The notes under the pieces: generated by a model | Databases searched by the model: none | What the model was told of the DNA's origin: nothing | The model's input: the letters and a program-made list of their open reading frames with translations, nothing else | Position numbers and translations under genes: made by a program | Virus record (IMG/VR): IMGVR_UViG_3300043427_000599 | Span: 1 to 32,937 of that record | DNA length: 32,937 nt | Direction: 5' to 3' (one strand) | Origin: a virus | Shown: positions 2,221 through 32,937 of the stretch, piece by piece | How the letters are laid out: each line of letters opens with the position of its first letter | How positions within the stretch are numbered: the stretch's first letter is position 1

Positions 2221-2505
2221 CGTTGGTCGACGCGCTGATGGGGGCCATAACCCAGCCCTCGAGAAGGTAGGCGCGACCAACTCGGATAAACGTGGCGAAT
2301 CGTGTGGTGCTTCAGTAGCGAAAGCGAACGGGGCCAGATGCGCGGGGCGAGATCGAAAGATCAAGCTAGCCTAGATAAACCAGAGCGCCTGATGGCCGGG
2401 ATACCGCAAGGCTCCTCCCGGTCGAAGAAAATCGAGGCCCGCGCCTCGGGTGAGGTTGTATTTGGTCAGACGGTTACGAGCCTGCCATCAGCGTGTGATA
2501 CCGCG
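2221..2505 (+). ncRNA. Candidate structured RNA in the gene-free stretch after terL
   Basis: The 468-bp gap 2088-2555 has no convincing reading frame but much pairing potential. The 10-pair stem 2223-2233/2271-2280 (bulged A2230) closes a local multi-hairpin domain. A long-range 12-pair helix is possible between 2230-2241 and 2485-2496 (one G-U), as is 2275-2280 with 2462-2467. GNRA-type loops cap short stems: GATC-GAAA-GATC at 2351-2362, CC-GCAA-GG at 2404-2411 and GC-GAAA-GC near 2318-2325. Further stems are 2396-2401/2416-2421 and 2434-2438/2443-2447. Several helices exclude each other. No known family (tmRNA, RNase P, group I intron) could be recognised. The RNA role is inference. Confidence 0.35.
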
Positions 2506-10988: not shown

Positions 10989-13261
10989 TGCCGCGATTCG
11001 TTGAACTGCAGAGCAACTTCTCGACGGGTGAGCTCGATCCGCTGCTGCGTGCGCGGGTCGATCTGCAGGCCTACAACAACGCGCTGGCCAAAGCCACCAA
11101 TGTGCTGATTCAGCCCCAGGGTGGGCTGAAGCGCCGGCCAGGAACCAAGTGCCTCGCCGAGCTCCCAAGCAATGCTGCAGACGGGGTTCGCTTAGTGCCG
11201 TTTCAATTTTCTGTCGATGACTCCTACATGTTGGTGTTCGTACATCAACGAATGTATGTCATCAAGGATGGAGTGGTACAACTCAACATCAACGGCAGCG
11301 GCAACAACTACCTGACGGTAAGCACCATTACGAGCAGCATTGTCGACGACATGTGCTGGACACAATCTGCTGACACATTGATCGTGGTTCATCCAGATCT
11401 GCAGCCGGTGCAGATCACGCGCACCAGCGACACGGCCTGGACGGCCACTACCGTCACATTCGACTCGATCCCGAAGTACGCCTTCAACATCGACTTCCAT
11501 ACGAACAACGGTTCGACGCTCACGCCCAGCGCGGTAAGCGGAAACATCACGCTGACGGCCTCGACGACTCACCACGACAGTGGCGCAGCGCAGGCTGGAT
11601 CAACGACCACGATCACGCTGAAGGCGACCGCGAGCAGCACCAACGATATCTACAACGGCATGTACGTCACGATCACCAGCGGCACGGGTTCGGGCCAGAT
11701 CCGGCTGATCGAGGGCTATGTTGGCAGCACCAAGGTTGCGACAGTCTCCGAAGCCTGGACGACGGCGCCGGACGCCACCAGCAACTATTCGATCACGACC
11801 TGGACGACGCAGTCGGTCAACCAGTACGTCAACGCCAGCCCTCAGGGCCGCGCCAGGATCCTGCGTTACGTCTCGGCCACGGTGGTCGAGGCGGTGACCG
11901 AGTACCCATTCTTCAACACCACGGCGGTCGATGCTGGCCGCTGGGAGCTCGAGCACGGGTATGTGGATGTCTGGAGCGCCGGCAAAGGATGGCCGCGCAC
12001 GGTTACCTTCCACGAGGGCCGGCTCTATTTTGGCGGCAGCAAGTCTCGACCGAGCACGATCTGGGGCTCGAAGATCGGCCTCTTCTATGACTTCGTCCCG
12101 ACCGAGAACCTGGACGATGACGCGCTCGAGGCCACGCTCGACACCAACGACCTGAACGTCATCACCGACATCATCAGCGGTCGCGACTTCCAGGTGTTTA
12201 CGACCGGCGGCGAGTTCTATGTCCCGCAGCAGGGAAGCGATCCGATCACGCCGCTGACGTTCACGTTCAAGAACGTGAGCCGCAACGGCATCAAGCCTGG
12301 CACTCGGGTGCAGGCGCTAGAGTCGGGCTCGGTCTACATCCAGCGCCAGGGCAAGTCGCTCAACGAGTTCGTGTTCAATGACACGCAGCTGACGTACATC
12401 ACGCAGCGGATCTCGCTGTTGTCTGGCCACCTGCTGAAGGGGCCGCAGCGGATGGCCATGCGCCGCGCCACCAGCACCGAGGAAGGTGACCTGCTGCTGA
12501 TCACCAACACCAACGACGGCAGCATGGCGGCATTCAGTGTGATGCGAGCACAGCAGATCACTGCGCCGTCAGAGTTCGTCACCACTGGCGACTTCGTTGA
12601 TGTTGGTATCGACGTGACTGACATCTACACGGTAACCAGCCGCATCGCTGCTGCAGACCTGCTACTTGAGAGCGGCAGCAATCTGCTGACCGAGGACGGT
12701 GAGCCGATGCTGCTCGAGCATGGCGGGCCGAAGTATTTTGTCGAGCTCTTCGACGATAGCCTGTACACCGACTGCGCGGTCACCGGCGGCGCGGCATCGA
12801 GCGCATCGAGCCTGCCGATGGTCAACGAGATCGTCAACGTGATCTGCGACGGGGTGCCGCAGGGCGATGAGGTTGTGAGCGCCGCGGGCACCGTGACGTT
12901 CGACCGGGCATCGGTCTACACCTACGAGGTCGGCCTGCCTTTCACGGTCTACTGCAAGACGATGCCGGCAGAGATCCAGCTGCAGACCGGGTCGCGCATC
13001 AGCTTCAAGAAGCGGATCGTCGAGATCAGCGCGATCGTGTCAGAGACGCAGGAGCTTGTGATCAATGACCAGCCTGTCGCGTTCCGGCTGATGGACAACC
13101 CGCTGCTGGATGAGCCGGTGCCAACCTTTACCGGCATCAAGCGCGTGAATGGCGTGCTGGGCTACGACCGCGAGCAGGCCATTGAGATCGAGCAGACCCT
13201 GCCGCTCAAGATGACTTTGCTCGGTCTTGACTACCGCGTCGCGGTCTATTCGGGAACCTGA
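10988..13261 (+). CDS. Tail nozzle, T7 gp12 (tail tubular protein B)-like
   Basis: 757 residues; forms the distal tail tube in podoviruses. The N-terminus FSTGELDPLLRARVD (11-25) followed by YNNALAKATNVLIQPQGGL and KRRPGT (48-53) is the signature of this family. The remainder is beta-rich with repeated Ser/Thr strands, as expected of beta-propeller and platform domains. Residues about 558-577 carry an LLLESG/LLTEDG/MLLEHG stretch resembling the 28-residue repeats at 4729-5034, probably an inserted surface feature. It overlaps the adaptor stop. Confidence 0.9.
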   Translation: MPRFVELQSNFSTGELDPLLRARVDLQAYNNALAKATNVLIQPQGGLKRRPGTKCLAELPSNAADGVRLVPFQFSVDDSYMLVFVHQRMYVIKDGVVQLNINGSGNNYLTVSTITSSIVDDMCWTQSADTLIVVHPDLQPVQITRTSDTAWTATTVTFDSIPKYAFNIDFHTNNGSTLTPSAVSGNITLTASTTHHDSGAAQAGSTTTITLKATASSTNDIYNGMYVTITSGTGSGQIRLIEGYVGSTKVATVSEAWTTAPDATSNYSITTWTTQSVNQYVNASPQGRARILRYVSATVVEAVTEYPFFNTTAVDAGRWELEHGYVDVWSAGKGWPRTVTFHEGRLYFGGSKSRPSTIWGSKIGLFYDFVPTENLDDDALEATLDTNDLNVITDIISGRDFQVFTTGGEFYVPQQGSDPITPLTFTFKNVSRNGIKPGTRVQALESGSVYIQRQGKSLNEFVFNDTQLTYITQRISLLSGHLLKGPQRMAMRRATSTEEGDLLLITNTNDGSMAAFSVMRAQQITAPSEFVTTGDFVDVGIDVTDIYTVTSRIAAADLLLESGSNLLTEDGEPMLLEHGGPKYFVELFDDSLYTDCAVTGGAASSASSLPMVNEIVNVICDGVPQGDEVVSAAGTVTFDRASVYTYEVGLPFTVYCKTMPAEIQLQTGSRISFKKRIVEISAIVSETQELVINDQPVAFRLMDNPLLDEPVPTFTGIKRVNGVLGYDREQAIEIEQTLPLKMTLLGLDYRVAVYSGT

Positions 13262-27441: not shown

Positions 27442-28081
27442 TGCAGGCCTCCAGCAGGTTGCGAACTTGCGACGGCGCCCAGTTGGTGCCACCGCGAGGG
27501 GTTGCGATACCGCGTGCTTGCAGGGCTGCAGCGATCTCGCGAAGGGTGGTGCAGCCGGCACGCTGGATGTCGGCCACGATCGGCGCCAGGCGCGTAGCGT
27601 AGGCACTGGCACGGGCCTGGATGGCAGCGATACCGGCGGCGCTGCCGCGCTCGGGGGTCGGGCACCCGAGTTTCACGCCACGGGCCTTGGCGGCCTGCAG
27701 GGCGGCTTTGGTGCGGCGGCTGATCTCCTCGCGCTCATGCTGGGCGACGACTGCGCGGATGCCGAACTCGAGGGTGCCGGCGTGCGGCATGTCGGCAGCG
27801 ACGATCTGCACGCCAGAGTCGCGGAGCGTCAGCAGGAACGCAGCCTGGCGGGATAGGCGGTCGATCTTGGCGATCAGCAGGGCGGCGCCGGTACGCTTGC
27901 ACAGTGCGATGGCTGCGGCCAGCTGCGGGCGGTCATCGTTCTTGCCAGACTCGATCTCGGTGAACGAGTGGGTGATGTCTGCAGCGTACTGCTTGACGGC
28001 GGCTTGCTGGGCCTCAAGGCCAAGGCCTGACTGGCCCTGGCGCTCGGTCGACACGCGGAAGTAAGCGACGAACTTGGTCAT
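27434..28081 (-). CDS. Serine recombinase (resolvase/invertase type, 215 aa)
   Basis: Small serine recombinase. YFRVSTERQ puts the catalytic Ser at residue 11. ESGKNDDRPQL (44-54) and AKIDRLSR (71-78) carry the active-site Arg residues, and VVAQHEREEISRRTKAALQAAKARG is the linking E helix. A C-terminal helix-turn-helix (about 175-215, TTLREIAAALQARGIATPRGG) binds DNA. It could resolve multimers, invert a segment or integrate the genome. No obvious crossover site or inverted repeats were found by eye. AGAGGA precedes the ATG. Confidence 0.9.
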   Translation of the reverse strand: MTKFVAYFRVSTERQGQSGLGLEAQQAAVKQYAADITHSFTEIESGKNDDRPQLAAAIALCKRTGAALLIAKIDRLSRQAAFLLTLRDSGVQIVAADMPHAGTLEFGIRAVVAQHEREEISRRTKAALQAAKARGVKLGCPTPERGSAAGIAAIQARASAYATRLAPIVADIQRAGCTTLREIAAALQARGIATPRGGTNWAPSQVRNLLEACNA

Positions 28082-28099
28082 GGTGTCCTCTATCTGGGA

Positions 28100-28213
28100 T
28101 CAGCGGATGACGAACGGAGCCAGCAGGAGCACGGGCAGCAGCGCCCAGGGTGATCCGGTGGCTGCAGCGGCGCCGAAGCCGGCGCCAAGTGCAATAAATG
28201 CAAGGGTGCGCAT
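28100..28213 (-). CDS. 37-residue hydrophobic peptide
   Basis: A 37-residue frame with two hydrophobic stretches (LAFIALGAGFGAAAA and WALLPVLLLAPFVI), starting two bases after the stop of the upstream gene and ending 18 bases before the recombinase start. It fills an otherwise empty slot in the leftward operon. Real translation is plausible from the tight spacing. Function unknown; a membrane peptide. Confidence 0.45.
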   Translation of the reverse strand: MRTLAFIALGAGFGAAAATGSPWALLPVLLLAPFVIR

Positions 28214-28215
28214 GA

Positions 28216-28407
28216 TCAGCTGCGGTCGATCAGGAACTTGCTGACTTGGGTGCTGTGCAGACTGACGCGCTTGTACTCAATGCGGCGCTCGACGCCAGAC
28301 ACGACCAGAACCGGGTCAAGGACTACGACGTAGCCAGGTAACACGGTGGAGGCATTGGCACGGTAGCCAGAGTTCCACAGAGATTGGACGGCTTGATCAA
28401 CTCGCAT
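28216..28407 (-). CDS. Hypothetical protein, first gene of the leftward operon (63 aa)
   Basis: 63 residues, beta-rich in the middle (GYVVVLDPVLVVSGVERRIEY), basic, with no membrane segment. It is the promoter-proximal gene of the leftward operon and has a strong AGAGGAGT ribosome site eight bases before its ATG. No family recognised. Confidence 0.65.
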   Translation of the reverse strand: MRVDQAVQSLWNSGYRANASTVLPGYVVVLDPVLVVSGVERRIEYKRVSLHSTQVSKFLIDRS

Positions 28408-28598
28408 GTTCAGACTCCTCTTTCTGGGTTGTCTGCGATATCACTGCGATACCGCTGAAACGAATACTGACACGGTTCTTTTGCGGCTGTCAAATACCCA
28501 ATCGGCCAGGAAGCACTAGGGCAAACCCTAACCTGTTGCTTTTCGACTGCGCTGCCGGGTGTATCATTGCGCGATCACAACGATACAAAGGAAGGCCG
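28408..28598. promoter_or_regulatory. Divergent control region between leftward and rightward early operons
   Basis: On the - strand TTGACA (perfect -35, + coordinates 28488-28493) lies 18 bp from a weak CAGTAT -10 (28464-28469), pointing at the leftward operon. Between it and that operon are two direct copies of CTGCGATA, at 28433-28440 and 28444-28451, exactly 11 bp apart, a spacing expected for a regulator bound on one DNA face. For the rightward side TATCAT (28562-28567) may be a -10, but no well-spaced -35 was found. The ribbon-helix-helix protein encoded next door is the obvious candidate binder (inference). Confidence 0.5.
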
Positions 28599-28787
28599 AT
28601 GGAGATCGAGCCCTACAAGCCTTTCATGGTGCGGCTGAAGCCGACTACCAGGGAGATGCTGGACAAGGCCGCTGAAGACCAGCGCCGGAGTCGGGCAAGC
28701 ATCATTGACGAGCTCATTCGCACGCATCTGTCGAGCCGCTACAGCGACGTGCATCAGCGCATTGAGCGGCTATTGGCACAGCGATGA
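28599..28787 (+). CDS. Ribbon-helix-helix (Arc/MetJ-type) regulator (62 aa)
   Basis: 62 residues. A short strand PFMVRLKP (8-15) is followed by helix TREMLDKAAEDQ, turn RRSR, and helix ASIIDELIRTHLSSRY, the Arc repressor layout in which dimers insert the strand in the DNA major groove. A C-terminal extra helix (VHQRIERLLAQR) may oligomerise. The start is ATG 28599 with AAAGGAAGG upstream; the open frame reaches 28536 but lacks a ribosome site. It is the only clear transcription-factor candidate in the genome and is the first rightward gene. Confidence 0.82.
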   Translation: MEIEPYKPFMVRLKPTTREMLDKAAEDQRRSRASIIDELIRTHLSSRYSDVHQRIERLLAQR

Positions 28788-32583: not shown

Positions 32584-32937
32584 GCATTGACGTAATGAAA
32601 CAGGCGCTGGAAACATTAGAGGAATGCACCGCGTACACCAGCAGCGAATCGTGGTCACCGTCCATGACACGGGAATGCGAGGCTGCAATCACCGCCCTGC
32701 GCGAGAGGCTGGCGCAGCCAGAGCAGGAGCCGGTGGCGTGGATCAGCGAAAGCGAAAACCTGCTGTCATGGGACAAGTTCTATGACCACATGACGCCCCT
32801 CTACACTGCGCCGCGCCAATGGCAAGGGCTGACGGCTGACGAAATATGGGCTTGTAATGTTGCCCCTGCTGGGCATTCCGTCACCTATCACATCAGCATG
32901 GCTAACCAGAACGTTTTAGATTTTGCGGAAGCCATAG
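32580..32937 (+). CDS. 5' part of the junction-spanning small phage protein (128 aa in total)
   Basis: Starts at ATG 32580 and stays open to the end of the window; joined to 1-146 it makes 128 residues. It has a helical N-terminus (VMKQALETLEECTAYTS), a CEAAITALRERLAQPEQEPVAW stretch shared in part with the next protein, and a C-terminal region beginning PLYTAPRQWQGLTADEI. Such proteins seem built from exchangeable pieces joined at the LAQPEQEPVA peptide. No function known. Confidence 0.8.
   Translation, partial: MSIDVMKQALETLEECTAYTSSESWSPSMTRECEAAITALRERLAQPEQEPVAWISESENLLSWDKFYDHMTPLYTAPRQWQGLTADEIWACNVAPAGHSVTYHISMANQNVLDFAEAI
32821..32937. repeat. Terminal direct repeat, copy 2
   Basis: Exact copy of bases 1-117. 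It marks the closure point of the circular assembly; a reading frame runs across it without interruption. Confidence 0.95.

Follow-up and report, generated by a model that had tools for sequence, protein, structure and literature searches.

The terL-cupin gap contains two structured elements

The window, by which we mean the whole stretch of DNA analyzed here, comprises 32,937 bases, and its first and last 117 bases (1-117 and 32821-32937) form an exact terminal repeat. Because these ends are identical, we read the window as a circular phage genome that is complete at ~32.8 kb, though the record is classed as 'linear'. It encodes a T7-like head-tail adaptor, coat and tail genes, RecT, RecE, a DNA invertase, RusA, a replication initiator, and SSB, and ARAGORN found neither a tRNA nor a tmRNA in it. 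A gap of ~460 bp (2088-2546) separates terL (543-2087) from a cupin gene (2547-2873). A first-pass annotation, made from the window alone, had called this gap gene-poor, which was borne out, as no conserved protein was seen inside. Instead, the gap consists of two structured elements on the plus strand, module 1 (about 2107-2220) followed by an RNA we named 2A (2241 to about 2460).

We compared this site with its counterparts in terL relatives. Only ~60-95 nt separate terL from the cupin start in about 30 of 80 relatives, and other relatives have various inserts. Module 1 and 2A are present at the site in the window, L003, L008, L086, L091, and L095, while L004, L007, and L101 carry module 1 together with a different RNA, 2B. 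An HNH endonuclease gene follows terL in L002, L005, and L006, and L007 has a methylase gene. Since terL and cupin are almost adjacent in sister phages, we read the gap as an inserted cassette, which would explain why it is unusually free of genes. Judged from these comparisons, the gap is an insertion hot spot holding an RNA cassette, and 2A of the window, like a phage moron, is inserted between genes that lie side by side in relatives.

2A is a folded RNA with two pseudoknots

2A extends over 2241-2460, from a GGGGCC motif at the 5' end to a 3' end near CGGGTGAGGTTGTAT, placed near 2460 from the position of the pseudoknot PKb; covariance model R1 matches 2241-2391 with 152 bits. The hairpin P1 (2242-2258, with 2242-2245 paired to 2255-2258) has the 9-nt loop CAUAACCCA. 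It is followed by P2 (2259-2285, with 2259-2262 paired to 2282-2285), which encloses P2a (2266-2268 with 2276-2278). The P2a loop contains the 5' strand of a second pseudoknot, PKa (GGCGC, 2270-2274), whose partner GCGCC (2385-2389) was assigned by covariation count. Two GAUAAAC motifs flank the central domain, the first (2285-2291) nearly invariant in A2-A4 and the second (2374-2380) nearly invariant. This domain consists of P4 (2294-2371, closed by 2294-2296 with 2369-2371), which encloses P5 (2300-2305 with 2340-2345), P6 (2318-2325), and P7 (2346-2367). P8 (2394-2423, GGCCGGGA/UCCCGGUC) is confined to the window's subgroup, and L003, L008, and L095 have different but complementary stems there. 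The 3' part (2433-2456) holds P9 and the 3' strand of PKb, GGGU (2448-2451), which pairs with ACCC of the P1 loop (2250-2253). Comparison of relatives shows that 2A is folded by two long-range pseudoknots, one joining the P1 loop to the 3' end and the other joining the P2a loop to the strand that follows GAUAAAC motif 2.

The evidence for this fold comes from covariation. We built a covariance model from 12 sequences, leaving out PKa, and scanned viral contigs with two patterns taken from different parts of 2A. Both broad scans gave at least 120 matches, so the family is larger than counted here. The model recovered 101 matches in 100 loci of the first set and 67 of 67 in the second, which does not depend on the 5' hairpin because its scan pattern came from another part of the RNA. 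In the first set, the search pattern accounts for part of the P1 invariance, and P1 does vary in the second set. Besides GGGGC/GCCC, P1 occurs as GGGAC/GUCC (L338), GGGCC/GGCCC (the second copy of L134), GGGGG/CCCC, and GGGUC/GACC. Standard pairs filled 92.8% of the 1,940 pair cells in 71 distinct rows versus 67.9% in shuffled controls, and 486 cells were changed on both sides versus 153 in shuffled controls and 94 in the best slid version. Sliding the partners by 1-3 columns decreased the paired cells to 28-50%. Changes on both sides were found in 25 of the 30 pairs, and compensatory changes went beyond the controls, as expected of a new RNA family.

Individual helices follow the same pattern. 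P2 and P2a were paired in 99-100% of cells, with both-side changes at four of four and two of three pairs, respectively, and P4 (95-99%), P5 (91.8%), and P7 (87%) also had both-side changes. PKa was paired in 77.7% of cells and changed on both sides at all five pairs. For PKb, loop and partner change together (ACCC/GGGU; AUCC/GGAU, 7/7; ACCU/AGGU, 2/2; GCCC/GGGC, 4 plus 3 by eye; CACCC/GGGUG, 10/10; and a group with ACAACCAG/CUGGUUGU). Testing own against swapped PKb partners gave no difference in a crude, unanchored version and a clear one when anchored. Hence, from the compensatory changes, 2A is almost certainly a real folded RNA family and not a chance fold.

Other approaches were less informative or were discarded. 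Thermodynamic folding was rejected as evidence for 2A, as MFE folding of 2221-2510 gave a z of -0.95, with 35 of 200 shuffles as good, and missed the pseudoknots; for 2088-2546, z was -3.1. We found no shared reading frame in the interval, and small frames after the RNA were seen only in some relatives (L003 and L097), so protein coding was dismissed. P8 has a likeness to a hammerhead ribozyme (CUGAUGA..GAAA), which we rejected on inspection by eye, since GAAA lies away from the stem and P8 is present in one subgroup only.

The first-pass annotation had the kind of element right, a structured RNA, and its secondary structure wrong. The GNRA-type loops it pointed out are present, GAAA in the conserved hairpins P6 and P7 and GCAA in P8. 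Genuine long-range pairings exist as well; the conserved helices differ from those it proposed. Both strands of 2230-2241/2485-2496, 2223-2233/2271-2280, and 2386-2396/2484-2493 are intact only in the near-identical record L094, and these three helices are not intact in L003, L008, L086, L091, L095, L097, and L098. For a fourth, 2275-2280/2462-2467, the 6-mers recur by chance in multi-kb loci, so the strand-presence test says nothing about this helix. The element had been delimited as 2221-2505, of which about 2241-2460 is the actual RNA, and 2221 lies directly after the terminator of module 1.

2A matches no Rfam family

The suggestion that the RNA was undescribed came with named checks by covariation in diverse relatives, Rfam, and protein coding, and it survived all three; the covariation among the 71 distinct rows was strong. 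When the window, and the element in the relatives scanned, were compared with Rfam 15 (4227 models), no family reached the gathering threshold, and searches in E-value mode gave only chance matches. Neither structured element of the window's gap had an Rfam match, and the GOLLD and ROOL covariance models did not match at 2A. The view that the element is not a tmRNA, an RNase P RNA, or a group I intron held up: ARAGORN found no tmRNA, Rfam gave no match to RNase P RNA or to a group I or II intron, and the element is intergenic, with hardly any DNA at the same site in sister phages. A limited literature search found no description of 2A, and the paper on phage MEP301, which carries 2A, mentions no RNA at its position (PMC8024684). 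By these searches, 2A appears to be new as an RNA class, unrelated to any Rfam model at the thresholds used, orphan phage RNAs being known as a kind. Novelty is judged here from Rfam 15 and the limited literature search, and 2A may have been described elsewhere.

Promoter-like sites and module 1 precede 2A

In the window, the promoter-like site nearest to 2A is predicted upstream of module 1, where terL stops. This putative sigma70-type promoter (TTGACG-17-TACTGT, 2084-2112) overlaps the terL stop and scores below the promoter-scan threshold in the window; TTGACA..TAGTGT is kept in relatives. Module 1 (2126-2220) has a terminator hairpin (2147-2156 with 2207-2216) with a T run to 2220, and a bulge (2187-2195, GGTTCCTAC) pairs with the upstream strand 2126-2134 (GTAGGAACC). 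A putative promoter and a terminator, of the kind known from phage morons, are thereby present as sequence features. The long-range helices of module 1, which precedes 2A or 2B in many loci, are perfect and mostly 7-14 bp long, versus a shuffled mean of about 6.3, and their sequence varies by phage, upstream of both 2A and 2B (GTAGGAACC/GGTTCCTAC, GTGAGAACC/GGTTCTCAC, GTCGTTGTC/GACAACGAC, and GTGTGGCAGCACTG/CAGTGCTGCCACAC). In L088 and L206, the upstream strand has an alternative partner beyond the terminator, and the two mutually exclusive pairings would make module 1 a switch. The alternative pairing in the window is weak (6 bp).

Upstream of stand-alone copies of 2A, the commonest distance from the end of a -10-like hexamer to GGGG is 8 nt, and 46% of these copies reached a sigma70 promoter score of at least 9/12 versus 8.5% of control stretches. 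This shows that, in many other phages, a promoter-like site is placed for a predicted start of 2A at its GGGGCC end. One set of groups (L153, L154, L188, and L202) has the palindrome GGGTAAACC between -35 and -10, which is found in 12 of 123 copies (expected, about 0.002 per 60 nt) and is a possible operator. A similar sequence, GGGCAAACCC, is present in the window's early intergenic region (28081-28784).

2A is widespread in phages and often close to replication genes

2A is common to more than 100 phage sequences (viral contigs) and was single-copy in all 32 phage records searched; L134 has a second, diverged copy at 11150-11298, a weak match. Bacterial genome contigs with true 2A came from only one Paraburkholderia and one Nitrosomonadales assembly (2 true among 16 pattern matches in the genome collection). 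Within Burkholderiaceae, 2 of 249 genomes carried 2A, and a family search found 2B in none of the 249. Two isolated or named phages carry 2A, the Manatee Spring phage (record MW202825) and the Methylophilales phage MEP301, which has an OM43 host; MEP301 and its host FZCC2181 are an isolated phage system carrying the RNA. In MEP301, the 2A core is at MW452941 33434-33570, and the RNA has a GGGAC end.

We next considered the neighbors of 2A. Of 167 loci, 56 have a winged-helix replication initiator no more than 1.5 kb away, downstream on the same strand (25), downstream on the opposite strand (23), or upstream on the opposite strand (7). Because these arrangements vary, 2A is not one fixed leader. 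Other groups have RecE/RecT or helicase/primase downstream. Among loci collected by their initiator protein, blind to the RNA, all 31 untruncated MEP301-like loci (marine OM43-phage relatives, initiator identity 42-100%) contained 2A on the opposite strand just past the initiator end, in convergent orientation. The 13 MEP301-like loci without a full match end too soon, and more distant initiators were mostly without detectable 2A. Of the window's 22 terL relatives, three have 2A, three have 2B, and one has both, and 2A of the window is flanked by late genes, with about 4.4 kb (circular reckoning) between it and the initiator. In 12 of 23 genomes, 2A is close to the minimum of GC skew. This does not hold for the window or for several groups, the genomes are related to each other, and gene orientation likewise influences skew; as proof of an origin, GC skew gave a mixed result.

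The second large RNA family, 2B (CTGCATGGG..AAACACCGGC), is present in L004, L007, L101, L106, L123, L242, L302, and others. It has at least 120 pattern matches, a covariance model (R2), and a covarying pseudoknot of the UGCGA/UCGCA type. 2A and 2B seldom share a genome, with 2A in 0 of 24 2B records and 2B in 1 of 22 2A records. They are unrelated RNAs that are exchangeable at the terL-cupin site. Other elements near 2A include a small cysteine-rich protein gene (DYSLPSSDCDCPPWE) directly 3' of it in L003 (5900-6100) and L097, absent in the window, and, in the prophage-like record L139, a Betaproteobacteria-1 RNA (RF02932, 7882-8002) 1.1 kb upstream as well as a C4 antisense RNA.

Possible roles of 2A

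We propose that 2A is a stand-alone non-coding phage RNA of about 185-225 nt that would work in trans through its fold. Most phages would use it in the early or replication program, as it lies next to the initiator or early recombination genes, and it would probably bind a host or phage factor of replication or expression via its constant single-stranded motifs. Strict motifs and two covarying pseudoknots in a widespread phage RNA imply a defined molecular partner in infected cells. A link to replication or takeover is suggested because 2A is universal next to the initiator in one clade, has early-gene neighbors elsewhere, and has promoter-like sites at its start. In the window phage, transcription of 2A would begin at the promoter-like site overlapping the terL stop and read through the module 1 terminator, and 2A may be an accessory cassette, an 'RNA moron', because it behaves as an accessory element and is exchanged with 2B at the hot spot. 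Taken as a whole, this explanation has about an even chance of being correct. The role in replication or early takeover is tentative in its own right, falling just short of an even chance: 2A is accessory in the window's group, where it lies between late genes, and nearness to initiators may only mirror where phages keep long intergenic regions.

Because 2A behaves as an optional cassette, the main rival is that it is a counter-defense RNA moron, which mimics or sequesters a host immune component and is swapped as host defenses change. The promoter-like site and terminator of its own, the insertion between otherwise adjacent genes, the patchy presence in the window's clade, the alternation with 2B, an HNH endonuclease, or a methylase at the same site, and the rarity of 2A and 2B together all agree with this reading. 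Its universal presence in the untruncated MEP301-like loci would be unusual for an anti-defense gene, and we regard counter-defense as rather unlikely. It is also unlikely, in our estimate, that 2A and 2B are unrelated replication-associated RNAs doing the same job at or near the origin, interchangeable in phages without a DNA polymerase of their own.

A strict replication-origin RNA, in which 2A would be a pre-primer like ColE1 RNA II and the G tract downstream of it would form an R-loop, is improbable. G7/C7 tracts do cluster 100-400 nt past 2A and are nearly absent in other bins, and many G tracts are preceded by a recurrent AAAAATTTGAGTG box and followed by AAAGGT (L150, L163, L366, L514, L563, and L573). 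In one group (L376, L388, L410, L378, and L356), DnaA-box-like TTATCCACA repeats directly follow the 2A core, with 21 strict boxes in the first bin versus about 0.3 expected, and the MEP301 paper reports neither a DNA nor an RNA polymerase gene (PMC8024684). However, terminator-like sequences seem to separate 2A from the G tract in some members, and the tract occurs on either strand and also by initiators without detectable 2A. The TTATCCACA boxes, enriched as they are, were rejected as proof of an origin, since they are limited to one group and overlap RNA hairpins in it. Together, the tracts and boxes hint at a nearby origin; both are absent near 2A of the window, and neither is proof of one.

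We consider it very doubtful that module 1 and 2A form a riboswitch-like cis leader or attenuator controlling read-through or translation of the next gene. In L003, L097, L133, and L146, CGGGUGAGGUUCUAUG at the 3' end puts an SD-like GAGG ahead of ATG, and the exclusive pairings of module 1 in L088 and L206 would suit a switch, but the downstream gene differs by group and is often on the opposite strand, and in many members no start codon follows the RNA. A packaging or virion RNA like phi29 pRNA deserves hardly any credence: terL lies within about 0.15-3 kb of 2A in several groups, but these phages encode terL-type terminases, 2A is not kept in terL sisters, and its neighbors elsewhere are early genes.

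Comparison with known systems

By size and character, 2A is nearest to the orphan ornate RNAs ROOL, GOLLD, and raiA, but Rfam places it in none of these families. GOLLD and ROOL, both Rfam families, are phage-borne, stand-alone RNAs with long-range pairings, pseudoknots, and no known protein partner, as is 2A; they are far larger, GOLLD often exceeding 800 nt (PMC12286853), while 2A has no Rfam match and was not near tRNA islands where examined, the window having no tRNA. The raiA motif RNA, a folded orphan RNA of about 205 nt, is similar in length (PMC12286853), but 2A is phage-borne and does not match it in Rfam. Like phi29 pRNA, 2A is a small structured phage RNA; it does not match pRNA, its phages use terL terminases, and it is accessory among terL sisters. 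With ColE1 RNA II/RNA I it shares a structured RNA near a replication region and a downstream G tract, which is inconstant in strand and lacking near the window's 2A, and again there is no Rfam match. Finally, 2A resembles phage morons in its own promoter-like site, its terminator, and its insertion between genes adjacent in relatives, with the difference that the payload of a moron is a protein and that of 2A is an RNA.
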